From positions 360,954 to 424,953 of the forward strand of contig KV423915.1 in the NCBI GenBank assembly GCA_001632435.1: a DNA stretch of 64,000 bases, written 5' to 3'. The notes under the pieces were generated by a model that saw only the letters and a list, made by a program, of their open reading frames with translations, did not search any database and had not been told where the DNA came from. Every line of letters starts with the position of its first letter. The stretch's first letter is position 1. The DNA comes from Calocera cornea HHB12733. Lineage: Eukaryota > Basidiomycota > Dacrymycetes > Dacrymycetales > Dacrymycetaceae. The translations under genes and the position numbers were made by a program. This document shows, in pieces, positions 22,590 to 38,260 of the stretch.

Positions 22590-23012
22590 GTGTCCGAAAC
22601 TGCCTTGGATGCTCCGAAACCGTGTTTGATGATGATGACCGTCAGGGTGGCACGGTCCTCGATCGTCCAACGAAAACCGTCTTTGTCGCTCGAAAACCGA
22701 CTTTGCAACAGTCGCGGGATGCCGCCTTTGGGCTGCGAGAGCAGAAGAGCACCGTCCTCTCGGAAACTGCCTTGGATGCTCCGAAACCGTCTTTCATGAT
22801 GGTGACCGTGAGGGTGGCACGATCCTCGATCGTCCAACGAAAACCGTCTTTGTCGCTCGAAAACCGACTTTGCAACAGTCGCGGGATGCCGCCCTTGGGC
22901 TGCGAGAGCAGATCGGGAGCAAGAGCACCGTCCTCTCGGAAACTGCCTTGGATGCTCCGAAACCGTCTTTCATGATGATGACCGTGAGGGTGGCACGATC
23001 CTCGATCGGTCC
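22590..23012. repeat. Tandem repeat, three units of about 167-176 bp
   Basis: The block GAAACTGCCTTGGATGCTCC starts near 22,596, 22,763 and 22,939, giving periods of 167 and 176 bp, and each is followed by CGAAACCGT, TGATGATG and GGTGGCACG blocks. Periods are not multiples of three, so this is not a protein repeat. Confidence 0.85.
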
Positions 23013-23029
23013 ATGAATTCCACGCAAAC

Positions 23030-32064: not shown

Positions 32065-32069
32065 CAGTG
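32065..32069. repeat. Candidate target-site duplication, left (CAGTG)
   Basis: The CAGTG immediately outside the left inverted repeat equals the CAGTG at 38,256-38,260 outside the right one. Five base pairs is unusual for Harbinger-type elements, which typically duplicate three. Confidence 0.65.
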
Positions 32070-32086
32070 GATGACTTTCCGTAGAC
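32070..32086 (+). repeat. Left terminal inverted repeat
   Basis: GATGACTTTCCGTAGAC, identical to the reverse complement of 38,239-38,255. Beyond 17 bp the arms diverge but share AGATTTC and CCTAGAT words. Confidence 0.9.
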
Positions 32087-32355
32087 GTAGATCCTAAACG
32101 GAGGTAGATTTCGGAGGCAGAATCCTAGATAGGTCCCGCGTACCCAATCCGTAGGGTGCATGCGCGCACCCTCCTAGATCCTAGTTTGCTCACGTGCTCT
32201 ACACAGATCACGCCATTTGCTTCCGTTCTGGCCGCCGAGGGGGATGACAGCTGTCCATTCAGGTTGCGCCTCCCCCATACCCTCTCTCTCGGCTCATCGT
32301 CGCCCCCGATCGCCTCCTCGCTGTCTCGCCCCGTCCCCGATTCTTCCGTCCGCCA

Positions 32356-35087
32356 ATGGCATTGGCCAATTTCGTCCCTCAGAGCCATGCGCTCACCCCA
32401 GGCACGGCTCAGCGCATCGTCCACAACAAGCTGGACAGGCGCACCCTGCCCCACGTTCAGCTGTGGGACGTCAAGGAGATCACCCAGCCCAGTGGTCGGT
32501 CTCGAGAGCCTCCCTGCTTCCTGTGAGTCCACCAACGCCCCGTAGGATGCGCAACCTGACCGGCCCGTAGACTCTTCCTCAATGACGGCAAGTTCATCAT
32601 CGGCGCCGTCGCTGGCCTCGACGTCGTCTGGCAACTGCAGACGTACCGTCTCCGGCGATACGATGAGGTGCAGATCGTCGGCTACGATAACTGGCCTGTG
32701 CCCGGCGAGGCCCGAGGGTGCACATCCTGCTCTGTTTGCCTTCCCTCCCTCCCAGGATGCGCTGACGCAACCCACAGTGTCGTCTCCACCCTCATCCATA
32801 ACTTCATCCGAGTCAAGGCGCATCCTGGTCAGATTGGGGCCAACGCTGGTCGTCCGCGCGGGTACAAGCACCTCAGTCAGATCGCATACATCAGGTTGCG
32901 CCAAGAACCTCCCAAGTACGACTGGGTGGATCCCAACACGCAGCGCGACCTGGTCATTGCCCCGCGTCTCCTGACCGGTGGCGAGGCCAACATTCCTGTT
33001 GAGCTTGCGCAGCCTGTGCCGCTTGGCGGCTGGATGTTCACTGTCGGCCGACGCCTCCCCCAGCACGCGCAAGACTACATTACTCCGGGGCACTCCCCCC
33101 TCGACCCCGGTGGGCTCGTCCAGGATGGGCTGCAGTTCTGCCTTCATCTGCCCGGTCACGGCTACCGCTGGGGCCCATCCTTCCAGGCGATCATCGACGC
33201 CCAGGGTGCGCACCCTGTGAACCCAACCGCCAACCCCCTTAACCCAGATCCCGACCCCATTCCTGGTGAAGCCCCAACCCCTCCCAACAGGGCCCCGCCC
33301 CCCCCACCCACCCAGGGTGCGCTCACTGGGCTGCAGGGCCCCTTCAAGTATCCCGCCCACGCCGTACGCCCCAATCACCTGCACCCGGCGCATCCTGGCT
33401 GGGACAACGTGTCCCAGATCACCCTGGCCAGTGGCACGGTGGACGTCTGGGTGCGCATCAACCGCATTGACGACAAGGGTGTGACGACGGACCTTGTCGT
33501 CCACGACGAGACGGGGAAAATCGACATCGTGATCCGCCCTGGCCTCAAGCGTCATACTCGCAGGTTGCGCGTCGGTCGCTGCTATCAGCTGTACGGCGCA
33601 ACCTGCGTCCCTACCGCTATCTTCTGCCGCACGTTCCACCCCGTCCAACTCTCGCTCGACGAGGGTTGTCAGATCTTTGAGGTGAGTGTGCCCCCCGCCA
33701 GGTTGCGCACCCTACTGATGTTTGCCTCTAGTGTAACGAACCATCCATCCCAGAATGGATTATCGAACCCCGCAAGCTGAACCAACTCGTGCGCGGCGTC
33801 CCGAACAAGCCCATTGGTCCGTGCTTGCTGGCCAGGATGCGCACCCTGAAGCTGACGATTCCTGTAGACGTATGGTGCGTGATCATGAATACGAGCGAAG
33901 TGATCCCCGGCAAGGCCAAGGGCGATCCCACCAAGGTGAGGTTGCGCCATGCTCTTATTTGGCGCATCCTGGCTAATGTGTTTCAGGGCTGGGATAGAGC
34001 CCCCTCGTTGACACGCTGCGAGGTGTGGGCGACCGACAAGACCTTGACTGCTGTCCGAATTGTCGCTTGGGACGAGTTCCCCGAACAGCTCTACGGCCGC
34101 GATGGCGAAGTGGTCCTCCTCCACAACGTGACAATGGAGGATGGACGGCGCGATGAGATATGCTTGAAGACGGTCAGCGGGCTGACCGAGATCCTCCGTG
34201 GCCAGGATGCGCCCGAGCTCGCGCCGGCGTACAACGACATGATTGCCTGGTGAGTGGGGCGCATCCTCAGGCTGCGCCTGCGACTAGAGGGCGCAACCTG
34301 ATCCTTTCCTAGGTGGATCGCGGCCGCGGCGGACGACTCCACTCCCTGGAACGTCCTCGCTCTCAGCTGCAGCGCAGACGGTGCCAAAGCGCTGCAGCGC
34401 CTGGGACTCAAGACGAAAGCGCCCACCCTGGACATCACCGCCGTTCGCAGGAAGGGACTGGGCCGCCACCAGTTGCCAGACTTCTTCAAGATCGACGGGC
34501 GCATCCGTGTGCTGAATCCAGGCTCGGTCACATATGTAGGGTGCGCTCGCGATAACTGCAACAAGAAGGTGGAGCCAGCCGACCAGATTGCGCCTGGACT
34601 TTTCCAGTGTGCGCGCTGCGATCACCAGTTTGGCCAGGGGCAGGGACGGTGAGTCTGGCCGGCGCGCATCCTACGCTGGCGCATCCTGACTGTGTGCGTC
34701 CAGGTACAGGATGCGCGTGACAATCACGGATGGGAAGGGCGACATGGAGGACGCTGTCGCATTCAACACGGCAACCGAGGCAGTGGTAGGACTACCAGCC
34801 AGCAACATGCGCCAGACCATGGGAGTCAACCCGCTCGATGTATGCCGGAGTGTCTCTCACAGGTTGCGCATCCTCACTGACCCCTTCGCAGTTCGAACAA
34901 TACAACCTCGCGCGCTGGGCCATCGCGGCGGCGGAGCAGAAGAGATGGTTGATCAGCATTGAAGCACGTACTGAGGCACATGGGCCTGTGAGTCCGCAGG
35001 ATGCGCGCAACCTGCCCGGGCTGATCTTGTACACAGTTCAAGGGCAGGCGGCAATGGATTGTAACTCAGTTCGAGGAGAAGGTGTAA
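32356..35087 (+). CDS. Replication protein A large subunit (RPA1/Rfa1-like), element-borne
   Basis: Nine exons (32356-32522, 32571-32717, 32778-33681, 33732-33935, 33987-34249, 34313-34648, 34704-34839, 34892-34987, 35037-35087) give 767 residues, longer than the usual 600-650. The order matches RPA70: an N-terminal OB fold with LPHVQLWDVKEI and GKFIIGAVAGLD, a long proline-rich linker, DBD-A with WVRINRIDDKG and VVHDETGKIDIVI, DBD-B around the IVAWDEF region, and DBD-C with KGLGRHQLPDFFKIDGRI. A zinc ribbon near residues 638-665 reads CARDNCNKKV then FQCARCDHQF (CX4CX16CX2C). RPA1 binds single-stranded DNA in replication and repair. Introns are 48-63 nt and each holds the element's palindromic motif. 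The extra length is mostly linker, including AHP tripeptides encoded by motif copies. Confidence 0.85.
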
Positions 35088-35282
35088 CCAGGCGTAGGCT
35101 ATGTTTCTTTCCGTGTTCTCGTGTACGCGACGCGTCTCCGACGTGTCGTTTAATTGAAATGAATTTGTTTGTAACCCTGAGCGTGGCGACATGAATCTGA
35201 ATCACCAGGGTGCGCATCCTGAGGAGGCTCAGCACATCACCCATGGCAAACGATCACCACCTTTGTGGTGGGCAGAGCAAAC
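35088..35282. other. Spacer between the RPA1-like and transposase genes
   Basis: Short intergenic segment holding at least one motif copy (near 35,205); it probably carries the transposase promoter. Confidence 0.4.
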
Positions 35283-36636
35283 ATGCACCCCTGGCTGCAG
35301 GAGAGGATGCGCGCAACCTCTTCAGCATTCGAATCCTCGGACGATGAATCGGATGACGACACCTTCAACCAGCAATGCAGCGCAGCCTTCCTCGTCCTCG
35401 TGGAAGAACAGGCTGCGCATCATACCTCCAGGCACCGTCAGCCTCACCGTTCATACCTGACTCGTCGGGACCTGCTGCAAAACCCGAGGATGCGCACCCC
35501 CTTCCAGCAAGTCCTGATTGGGAAAGTCGACCGCGCTTATATCACCACCATGGGCTTGGATGTGACTACATTCCAGCGCATCCTGCGAGCAGGGTTTCAA
35601 GAGCTGTGGGATTCCGAACCAATCCCACGGACAGATACCTCAGCCTCAGGGGAGCCACGACCAACACAGCGCTCGCTGGACGCAGCTGGGGGCCTGGGCC
35701 TTGTACTCTACTGGCTCAACTCCACCATGTTGGACAAATCGCTCGCTCAAATATTCGCCCTGGTCCCCTCCACAATAACTCGCTACCGAGACTTTGGGCT
35801 AGACCTCTTGTTGCGCACCCTGAAGAGCATTCCTGAGGGTCAGATTGCTTGGCCCCATGAAGAAGAGTTTGGCGTGCTCTCAGACTTGGTGGTGGCCCGA
35901 CATCCCCTGCTCCAGGGGGCGTTTGGCTCGGTGGATGGCCTGAATCTGCCCACGGCAACATCCAGCGATGAACGCTGGCAGAATGCGCAATACAACGGAT
36001 GGTTGCATGGTCATTTCACCAGCAACGTGCTTGTGTTTTCCGCTCGAGGTAAGCCATAGAATGCGCGCAGCCTAAGGTTGCGCATCCTGACCTCAATGTA
36101 CAGGTGACCTGATACATGCCGCAATCAATGCCCCAGGCAGCTGGCACGATTCCCGGGTATCCAGCGCAATCTATGCCAAACTCGAGGAGAACACCCCCGA
36201 AGATTTCTACCTGGCAGCCGACACTGCGTTCCCACACAACAGAAACTCAATAAAGACAAAGATCAAGACACCCGTGAAGAGCGGCACTCGCACTACCAGG
36301 GAGCACTTACTTTTCCTCGACCAACTGGTATCATTTCGGCAATCCGCGGAGTGGGGAATGCGAGCCATCCAAGGCTCGTTTGGCAGACTGCGCCTACCAC
36401 TGGATGCCAATGATCCAGCAGCGCGGCGCACCCTGCTGGAAACTGTATTTCGCCTGCATCAGATCAGGGTGCGCCTAGTTGGCATCAATCAGCTTCGCAA
36501 CGTTTACGAACCCATCTGGACCGAGACATCAGAGCAGAAGCAGGTGTGGGGTTCCCTGCGGGAAATGTTCTTCCCCGACATTCGAAAGGCTGACCGCGTG
36601 GCCAAATTTCATTACATTGTCGTGGATGAAGACTGA
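35283..36636 (+). CDS. DDE_Tnp_4 (Harbinger/IS5-like) transposase
   Basis: Exons 35283-36048 and 36104-36636 give 432 residues. The nuclease domain has the expected order: GAFGSVDGLNLP with the first Asp near residue 217, a YNGWLHGHFTSNVLVFSARG strand split by the intron, NAPGSWHDSRVSS with the second Asp near 268, FYLAADTAFP near 294, and a candidate Glu in SAEWGMRAIQGSF near 337. Upstream is an acidic head with ESSDDESDDD and a helical region (ITRYRDFGLDLLL) like the winged-helix segment of PIF transposases. The reading frame is intact. The ATG at 35,283 was taken because upstream in-frame GTG codons are unlikely starts. Its 3' coding end overlaps the DUF6818 gene by 25 bp. Confidence 0.85.
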
Positions 36637-37915
36637 GCTTCATCCGCAGGCGACAGACTCATAGATTGCGCCATCAATTTACCCATTCCACCCATTCCCA
36701 GCAGCATGGTGCGCATCCTTTCCTGCATCTCGAGCTTGGCCTTCGCCACATCGAGCTCGCCCTGAACGACCAAGTGTGCGCGCGCATCCTGGAGTAGCTG
36801 TGTCCGAAGGGACTCGATCAGCTTGTCCTTCTCGAGGCTGACCGTGACCAGCTCATACTGCTTGTCACGGAGTTGAGCCTGGAGCGAGCTGATCTCGCTC
36901 TGAAACAGGCTGCGCTCGGCCCGCATGGAATCACGTTGTTGGAGCCGCTCGGCCTGCGTTTCGGGGTCGAATGCCCGGCTGACATTGGCCAGCAACGTCG
37001 AGGTTTGCAAATGCCGTCCGCTGGCCTTGGGGCCCGGGGTGACATGGCGGCGCTGTTTCAGAAGAACTCGCTCATCGGTGGTAGTTGTACTGGGCGTGTT
37101 GGAGGCACGCCCAGGTTGCGCCGCACGCTGCGCCCGAGGCGCATCCTCACGGTCAGAGGGAGGCCAATCGATTGGCTCTTCTTCTGCGTCCTCGGGCTCA
37201 TCATCGTCTTGCAGATTGCCCATATGGACATCGTTCTGGATTTCGCGATCAATGTCCTTGGCGCGGCGAATGAGATCAGGCATTTCACCCTCCCCAGTGG
37301 GCTTGGGCTTGTGGGACAGCTGTTGGGTGATCAGTACTGGAAGAGGATGCGCATCCTGGGGAGGGTGCGCACCTCAGCGAACTTCCGTTTCAGGCTCTCT
37401 GCAGAACGACCTTCCATCCCTTCTGTCGCCCAATAGCTCTGCATTCCCGCCATCACGTCCTCCCAGCCCCCAGGCCCAATCGGGCGATTGAGCTCTAAGA
37501 GCTCAATCAACACCGCCAACTCCCCGGTACTGTAGTTGGGTGCCCCCGCACTCCGGCCCTTCATCTTCTTGGGCTCGCGCGCACCCTCCGTGGTGGCTTT
37601 GGTTCCCTTGCGCTTCTTGGACGGTGGAGCAGGCTGCGCATCCTGAGCAAGAGAGGGAAGTGGATCGGGAGTCAGAGCGTAGCTGACAGCATCGGCGAAG
37701 GTGTGCGGAAGACCGTCAGAGTCGATTTGAGGGGAGTGGGGCATGCCGCCGGGGCTGCCGCTGTACGCGCTGCCAGAGCCCCAGGCAGACGCATGACCAG
37801 GCATTGGGAAAGGGACAGTTGAGTGCACATATGTTGGCGAAGGCAGCGGATAAGTCGAGGGGACAAAAGACGGAGTGGGGGCTGGCGAGGGTGCGCGGAT
37901 GGATGAATTCGACAT
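36612..37915 (-). CDS. DUF6818 (Myb/SANT-like) protein with coiled coil
   Basis: Exons 37915-37373 and 37319-36612 give 416 residues. A serine/proline-rich head is followed by a basic patch (PPSKKRKGTK) and a Myb-like segment with NYSTGELAVLIELLELNRPI, GGWEDVMAGM and RSAESLKRKF. Across the intron comes HKPKPTGEGEMPDLIRRAKDI. This combination is the DUF6818 layout (trihelix-like helices, then a KPTG-x-P-x-RxAK block). The C-terminal third is a long coiled coil (SEISSLQAQLRDKQYELVTV). Harbinger elements typically encode a transposase plus a Myb-like DNA-binding partner needed for nuclear import and end binding; this protein fills that place. The single intron holds two motif copies. Confidence 0.8.
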
Positions 37916-38086
37916 GGCTGGTGATGGTGGCTATTGCATAGCCAGGTTGCGCATCCTCTGTTGAGGTAAGAGCAAACGATGCCAAGATTGCAATGTACAA
38001 TGCCCCTCTGTGATTGGTGCAACCTGAGGCCAGCTGGAAACATCCGTTCGATGATGAGGATCCGTGAGGGTTTAGGAGACGCACAA

Positions 38087-38122
38087 AATCTAGAAGAGGG
38101 GGGGGGACCCCTCTTCTAGATT
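38087..38122. repeat. Perfect hairpin near the right end of the element
   Basis: AATCTAGAAGAGGGG at 38,087-38,101 and its exact complement at 38,108-38,122 make a 15-bp stem around a 6-nt G-rich loop. The stem contains TCTAGA/CTAGAT words that recur in the subterminal zones. Confidence 0.9.
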
Positions 38123-38238
38123 CGAAATCTAGGATGGGCGATAAGAAATCTAGGAGTGCGTCGGAGCTTGAAATTTGGCAGCGGCACCTCGGCAGACCCT
38201 ATGTGGCGCATCTAGGAGCCGGAAATCTGTGTATTTAT

Positions 38239-38255
38239 GTCTACGGAAAGTCATC
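38239..38255 (-). repeat. Right terminal inverted repeat
   Basis: GTCTACGGAAAGTCATC, the exact reverse complement of the left repeat, followed by CAGTG at 38,256-38,260 (the second copy of the candidate target duplication). Confidence 0.9.
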
Positions 38256-38260
38256 CAGTG

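Follow-up and report, generated by a model that had tools for sequence, protein, structure and literature searches.

Why does one DNA transposon of the fungus Calocera cornea HHB12733 carry the same short quasi-palindrome dozens of times, in exons, introns and spacers alike? We analysed a stretch of 64,000 nucleotides (the window, C2:360954-424953 in a 32.1-Mb assembly of 302 contigs), in which a PIF-Harbinger-type element, placed here by positions within the window, holds an RPA1-like gene, a DDE_Tnp_4 transposase gene and a DUF6818 gene. A preliminary description, made from the letters alone, had reported a 16-bp quasi-palindrome inside this single transposon. The sites prove to be under constraint as DNA at every base of the word except one, their word AGGnTGCGC is common to the window Harbinger, a Mutator-like element (MULE), a Tc5-type element and a second Harbinger family, and related words on the scheme A-x-y-n-z-GCGC exist in several transposon lineages. 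With a probability of roughly 0.4, we favour the reading in which the dispersed motif serves as recognition code for an RPA1-like reader of the lineage, used in trans by some elements, which would keep the element expressed (anti-silencing).

A nine-base word constrained as DNA

The element holds 61 half-sites (29 AGGnTGCGC and 32 in reverse), against a mean of 0.41 and a maximum of 3 in 200 first-order Markov shuffles of the element and 3 in the remaining 57.8 kb of the window. Ten full 14-mers (AGGnTGCGCAnCCT) and four exact 16-mers (CAGGnTGCGCAnCCTG) occur in it; AGGnTGC continues with GC in 61 of 64 cases, and the unit is therefore a 9-mer. The half-sites form 40 clusters, on average 148 bp apart (one half-site per 101 bp), the leftmost site lying about 95 bp inside the left end and the rightmost about 300 bp inside the right end, and no tandem repeat was found in the element. 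Each full site consists of two 9-mers, one per strand, overlapping on GCGC: among facing half-site pairs pooled over loci (excluding L009), the offset was 5 in 69 cases and 7 in 15. This geometry would suit either a two-armed dimer centred on GCGC or recognition of each strand as single-stranded DNA.

Using our own gene models, built from GT-AG introns and open frames without transcripts, we placed 31 of the 61 half-sites in exons and 24 in the 587 bp of intron sequence, where all 11 introns (each about 53 bp) carry the motif, giving densities of 40.9/kb in introns, 6.5/kb in exons and 7.3/kb in spacers. Orientation relative to the genes is balanced (16 sense and 15 antisense in exons, 10 and 14 in introns). 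Across the genome, the 16-mer occurs 44 times and its reversed pattern 0 times, and 43 of the 44 lie inside motif-dense loci; a single site on C13 (L006) does not. Single half-sites number 1242+1308 genome-wide vs 755+684 for the reversed pattern; many of them are background, from which the clusters stand out.

To measure constraint, we aligned the element with three full-length copies from the same genome (L011, L012 and L015/16), which are about 65% identical to it outside motifs. Per full-length copy, 42-46 of the 61 half-sites lie at the same alignment column, and the partial copy L017 keeps 24 of 44 aligned half-sites. Over the three full copies, identity at the specified motif bases was 0.893 in exons, 0.906 in introns and 0.892 in spacers, vs 0.671, 0.524 and 0.658 outside motifs, and at third codon positions it was 0.859 for motif bases and 0.460 for other bases. 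The free n inside the motif was 0.33 identical in introns, and a fixed site with a free internal base is the footprint expected from protein contacts. In exons, 64 of 93 comparisons preserved the whole half-site (0.068 for control 9-mers); the corresponding figures were 53 of 72 for introns (control 4 of 612, 0.007) and 13 of 18 for spacers (control 0.093).

What the preliminary description had said of the element itself largely stands. The dense repetition is real, the figure of about fifty copies every 120 bp was right in substance, and the motif does fall off at the terminal inverted repeats. Of the even presence it described, occurrence in coding sequence, introns and spacers and on both strands holds, but density is uneven. 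Its argument that codon use is insufficient and that selection acts on the motif as DNA is borne out by the conservation between copies and at third codon positions; the shuffle test and the copy alignment it had proposed found the motif far above shuffles and its positions kept.

The element (Table 1) ends in an 18-bp perfect terminal inverted repeat (GGATGACTTTCCGTAGAC) and is flanked by the 3-bp target duplication AGT (32066-32068 and 38257-38259), with matching 3-bp duplications at L011, L012 and L015/16; together with its DDE_Tnp_4 transposase (PF13359, 39 bits vs a cut-off of 24.8), this makes it a PIF-Harbinger-type element. A Pfam search of its frames gave matches to RPA1, DDE_Tnp_4 and DUF6818 (the VANC profile was not searched by name). 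The RPA1-like protein exceeds the Rep_fac-A_C cut-off (32.4 bits vs 28.5), has two OB matches under their cut-offs and matches RPA1/RPA70 in the PDB (E 3e-9), so that the hallmarks of RPA1, OB-folds and a zinc-bearing C-terminal domain, appear to be present. The DUF6818 match is slightly below its cut-off (25.5 bits vs 27), and the protein is a candidate for the second, SANT-like DNA-binding protein of PIF-Harbinger transposons.

Table 1. Features of the PIF-Harbinger-type element, in window positions
Feature	Position	Strand	Description
PIF-Harbinger-type element, whole	32069..38256	none	Terminal inverted repeats and target duplication; other copies and miniature elements mostly with matching ANT duplications
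Half-site zone, AGGnTGCGC / GCGCAnCCT	32164..37957	both	61 half-sites, 40 clusters
Exact 16-bp full sites (n=4)	33202..33217, 33833-33848, 35206-35221, 37630-37645	none	Exact copies of the 16-mer
RPA1-like gene	32356..35087	+	10 exons, 750 amino acids, open; 9 introns with at least one half-site each
Example intron, 48 bp	32523..32570	+	Contains full site AGGATGCGCAACCT
DDE_Tnp_4 transposase gene	35283..36636	+	2 exons, 432 amino acids, open; 3 half-sites in intron 36049-36103
DUF6818 gene	36612..37915	-	2 exons, 416 amino acids, open; 3 half-sites in intron 37320-37372

Elsewhere in the genome, three 2.9-kb relatives of the element (L007, L008 and L014) are 99.3-99.8% identical among themselves and probably recently active; TGGATGCCTTTCC ends are present in L007. 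A search of L007 and L014 turned up no RPA1-like match, and L008, outside that search, is 99.8% like L007. The window also contains a tandem repeat at 22596-23013 (167-bp unit, 2.4 copies).

Shared and re-spelt words across transposons

Contrary to the first impression of a motif limited to a single transposon, AGGnTGCGC recurs beside unrelated transposases. We counted 48 half-sites in L005, a MULE with an RPA1-like gene (shuffle mean 0.28; with C as the free base in 45 of the 48), 18 in L013, a Tc5-type element with HTH_Tnp_Tc5 (shuffle mean 0.17), and 18 in L018, a SANT-Harbinger with DDE_Tnp_4 and Myb_DNA-bind_3 (shuffle mean 0.14). The word is also carried by L009, like L005 a MULE plus RPA1-like gene, and by the DDE_Tnp_4 loci L010/L041 and L046. 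The DDE_Tnp_4 and MULE loci among these come from the minority examined for words of the 28 DDE_Tnp_4 and 39 MULE matches in the genome. In the frames scanned, no DUF6818 relative was found in the same-word MULE, and neither a SANT nor a DUF6818 match in the same-word MULE or Tc5-type element.

As a check of scale, we scanned for over-represented gapped words with collapsed counts, obtaining z 10.5 to 35.4 with both strands used at 15 dispersed-word loci (L045, described below, included), and at most 7.2 in shuffles (ten per locus). Of 20 non-element window pieces, a further one being skipped for Ns, 19 reached z 7.5 or less and one reached 11.0, as a one-strand tandem repeat. Sites are also retained between related loci: 44 of 48 from L005 to L009 (control 0.36), 10 of 13 from L010 to L046 (0.15), 24 of 37 from L053 to L054 (0.19), 23 of 31 from L053 to L055 (0.045) and 4 of 7 from L052 to L056 (0.042). 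Mean cluster spacing was 148-165 bp across five elements; in the window element it is more even than random (coefficient of variation 0.52 vs 0.78, p 0.002), and over the five, two were at p 0.002, a third at 0.021 and the others at 0.057 and 0.108.

Other lineages carry changed words. Base tables around GCGC follow one scheme, A(-5) x y n z GCGC, in which x, y and z vary by lineage. L040, which is 65-68% identical to L018, has 1 AGGnTGCGC and 17 AACnnGCGC (shuffle mean of the latter 0.28, maximum 3 in 500), and L044 has ACCnnGCGC 15 times vs 0.9. In a five-way alignment, 6 of 17 half-sites of L040 and 4 of 15 of L044 stand at the column and in the orientation of a sister's AGGnTGCGC, where 2000 circular shifts gave mean coincidences of 0.08 (L040) and 0.09 (L044) with a maximum of 3; at some sites, therefore, the word has been re-spelt without moving. 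One column reads AGGCTGCGC in L018, AACTGGCGC in L040 and ACCTTGCGC in L044. Genome-wide, AACNNGCGCNNGTT occurs in 56 places vs 37 for its reversed control, and of the 50 listed matches among the 56, 4 lie together at one L040-type copy on C1 and 5 at another on C6; ACCNTGCGCANGGT occurs in 14 places vs 5 for the control (2, 4, 2 and 2 on C34, C64, C243 and C258, plus four singles).

Three further cases stand beside these. L057 (C64:136600-139600) carries ACCnnGCGC 14 times vs 0.86; its four scanned open frames have no match to any Pfam family, and it is possibly another transposase type. L045 (C16:88000-90500), a Harbinger transposase locus, carries the palindromic GACCAGC/GCTGGTC, dispersed on both strands, 16 times vs 1.1 expected; having no GCGC core, this word may be a separate code system. 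CGGnAGCA (arrays at 2040-2410 of the RPA1-like locus L047 and 2426-2668 of the MULE locus L049) was dropped as a fifth code, its arrays resembling ordinary MULE subterminal repeats in lying mostly on one strand; words mostly on one strand were seen at the MULE-linked loci L047 (z 10.9), L048 (7.6) and L049 (9.6).

A genome search with the C-terminal region of the element's RPA1-like protein as query found matches on 14 contigs, the host-like RPA1 (C3) and 13 others. Twelve of the 13 non-host loci were examined (C219 was left out, as were the RPA1-like loci C9:272868 and C3:150554 from the word analysis), and all 12, with an RPA1-like gene related to the element's, carry a word of the scheme. 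AGGnTGCGC is found in the window element, L011, L012, L015/16, L017, L043, L005 and L009. The others carry AACnnGCGC (L052, 13 vs 0.83), ACTnTGCG (L053, 15 vs 1.12, with TGCGCAG as top dyad, 26 vs 1.47), ACTnnGCGC (L055 on C118, 20 vs 1.05) and CAAnnnGCGC with AACnnGCGC (L056 on C140, 20 vs 2.1 and 17 vs 1.5); L054, found by Pfam, resembles L053. Because C21, C36 and C258 were chosen partly for palindromes already seen, only C118 and C140 count as picks by RPA1 similarity, and one AACNNGCGCNNGTT palindrome about 5 kb from the C140 locus had been listed before that locus was chosen. In the RPA1 tree, L053-L055 group with an ultrafast bootstrap (UFBoot) of 100, as do L052 and L056 (100).

A dispersed word on both strands was found in none of the six other loci, namely the host-like RPA1 (L042) and the RPA1-like L047, L051, L058, L059 and L060. 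L060 has GATnATCT (z 8.3) in local clumps, and L050, L051, L058 and L059 gave no over-represented word above shuffle level, shuffles having been run for part of these four. The best-scoring Rep_fac-A_C gene is a separate one at C3:197135-197979, 22% identical to the element's; taking it from its score as the host RPA1, the element's protein would not be the host replication RPA1.

Nine elements of the size of miniature inverted-repeat transposable elements (MITEs), with the same terminal repeats, hold 2 half-sites in 4219 bp vs 41.6 expected at full-element density (both ends were seen in seven; in two, one end was seen and the length assumed), and ANT target duplications match in 5 of the 7 two-ended ones. 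Seven of the nine belong to a single family (94% or more), so the set amounts to about three independent cases. Since MITEs with the same ends nearly lack half-sites, the word is not needed for cut-and-paste. No half-site occurs in the 3.5 kb of the broken copy L027, whose CpG observed/expected ratio is 0.32 vs 0.84-0.88 in intact window-family copies, a depletion that suggests CpG-methylation-type decay. As a read-out of protection, CpG depletion was set aside, being suggestive for this dead copy and inconsistent among coded elements. The genome has seven matches to the cytosine methylase family PF00145 on two contigs (C177:23357-28991 and C104:36870-37217), those on C177 possibly being two adjacent genes.

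Candidate readers of the word

Most simply, the sites would be bound by a protein that differs in specificity from lineage to lineage: a sequence-specific DNA-binding protein would read sites that are spread over the transposon's whole coding body and that selection keeps. The RPA1-like protein is the best candidate because related genes and words co-occur and a MULE and a Harbinger share both; as an OB-fold protein, it would bind the 9-mer on either strand. The SANT-Harbinger and the Tc5-type element, without an RPA1-like gene, may have retained the word of a lineage that does encode one and rely on that lineage's protein in trans. One step further, occupancy along the element could keep silencing marks off and thereby maintain expression, as VANC does for VANDAL elements in Arabidopsis, and we favour anti-silencing over transposition proper because MITEs lack the word and coding elements keep it. 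Both the reader's identity and its effect are what we infer from sequence. Among the functions floated in the preliminary description, RPA loading and silencing escape appear to fit best, given the word at 12 of 12 related RPA1-like loci and an anti-silencing system as the nearest parallel.

Several observations weigh against this reading. RPA1 is classically a binder of single-stranded DNA without strong sequence choice. The 12 RPA1-like loci represent about four families, not 12 independent cases, and within a family the gene and the word may simply be co-inherited; the sole case across superfamilies is the MULE plus the window Harbinger, whose RPA1 grouping has a UFBoot of 76. When three sequences were added to the tree, this split fell at 73 and took in L059 (itself weakly placed, at 58), the nearest RPA1-like locus in that tree, which has no word. 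Several kinds of word-bearing element have no RPA1-like gene that we found, so trans use must be assumed, and no transposase match was found in the frames scanned at L052-L056, leaving their transposon status putative. The top word of L056 leans to one strand (16 of 20), and retention was low from L056 to L052 (4 of 13, control 0.040) and from L018 to L010 (5 of 14, control 0.030). Because L045 has an unrelated dense word, the A-x-y-n-z-GCGC scheme is not the sole one, and CpG depletion, a proxy of past methylation, does not track the code, the same-word L013 and L018 being at 0.48 and 0.63.

The strongest rival, which we still consider unlikely, is that a host DNA-binding protein family, for instance a nucleosome-excluding general regulatory factor, reads the sites and that transposon lineages evolved them densely and independently. 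It would account for the same word in elements in which we found no common gene (MULE with RPA1, Harbinger with RPA1 and DUF6818, Harbinger with SANT, Tc5 type) and for a cluster spacing of about 150 bp that is more even than random in three of five elements (p 0.021 or less). It would, however, need several host readers, as the words differ by lineage, and it does not predict the word at 12 of 12 related RPA1-like loci against 0 of 6 others.

A little more doubtful is a reader of the same RPA1-like kind that acts in the element's replication or repair, where it would load on both melted strands, and not in anti-silencing. The kinship of the protein to RPA1 and the presence of a whole 9-mer on each strand of the full site, overlapping on GCGC, suit single-strand reading, and the consulted parts of one study describe an RPA-like gene in many plant Helitrons (PMC4683698). 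Yet MITEs sharing the terminal repeats would also gain from copying and have almost no sites, and elements without RPA1 keep theirs.

We regard as improbable that the element's SANT/DUF6818 protein is the reader, an idea already raised for DUF6818 in the preliminary description and kept here at low weight. A Myb/SANT protein is known in the Nuwa lineage of Harbingers, according to the part of PMC12730594 consulted, and L018 has a Myb/SANT domain whose similar stretches in L010, L040 and L044 differ by word in the presumed recognition helix; these four sequences are not enough to link particular residues with words, and in the frames scanned neither match turned up in the same-word MULE or Tc5-type element. 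Sites for the transposase, whether for transposition or against self-insertion (target immunity), are very improbable: a body-wide motif nearly absent from short MITEs is what self-protection could allow, but the same word stands beside three unrelated transposase types, the motif avoids the terminal repeats, and the MITEs have the same ends and target duplications without it (2 half-sites in 4.2 kb vs 42 expected), so the transposase binding site proposed at first is not upheld. Chance, composition, codon use, tandem duplication and an RNA or splicing signal are already contradicted, despite the motif's presence in all 11 introns, by the shuffles and the word scan, by conservation at all three codon positions and equally in spacers, by the lack of a tandem repeat in the element, by the balanced orientation to genes and by the 19 of 20 non-element window pieces at low z.

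If the RPA1-like reading holds, transposons share and switch a recognition code whose reader others exploit, and RPA1-like proteins would be a second, unrelated solution to VANC's problem, reaching across transposon superfamilies. As a tentative extension, which we can envisage without leaning towards it, the genome as a whole may use a 'passport', with RPA1-like readers each having a nine-base word per lineage that unrelated elements from at least three superfamilies write into genes and introns by the dozen, re-spell in place and change allegiance by. Self-vs-host recognition, the evolution of anti-silencing and stepwise change in DNA-binding specificity would then be testable with the reader-word pairs of one genome.

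Known systems with dense sites or shared genes

The subterminal repeats of En/Spm and Ac provide many short binding sites for a transposon protein per element, restricted to the ends; the ends of the window element, in contrast, are free of sites. A published description of such a shared transposon code was not found among the matches listed in a search to which preprints and most subscription journals were external. In the consulted parts of PMC4683698, plant Helitrons resemble our element in bearing an RPA-like gene on its own branch beside the host gene, and differ in being Helitrons, in plants, with tandem-repeat blocks mentioned and not a dispersed word. TET/JBP genes, common to 11 DNA transposon lineages in fungi (PMC12730594, consulted in part), are a parallel for one epigenetic accessory gene passed among unrelated transposon superfamilies, Harbinger included; the parts consulted mention no dispersed DNA word, and the text contains neither 'RPA' nor 'replication protein A'.

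The nearest system is VANDAL/VANC of Arabidopsis, a sequence-specific anti-silencing by short motifs (PMC5735166, PMC10398659; both consulted in part, as for all that follows on VANC). There, too, a single transposon lineage carries a dense short motif that is most pronounced in introns and elsewhere in non-coding sequence; motifs differ among related lineages and change together, as they do here; and the unrelated element AT9TSD1 shares the VANC6 motif (PMC5735166), in parallel to the trans use that we propose. The two systems differ in that VANC motifs belong to non-coding tandem repeats, whereas single dispersed sites are found here, 31 of 61 in exons, and in that the VANC motif YAGTATTAY is by inspection not palindromic, whereas ours forms a 14-bp palindrome. 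Unlike in VANDAL, the word here accompanies three transposase types and switches in place, and the gene that goes with it matches RPA1 in Pfam, where VANDAL has VANC. For VANC, anti-silencing has been demonstrated; for the Calocera elements it is the effect that we propose.

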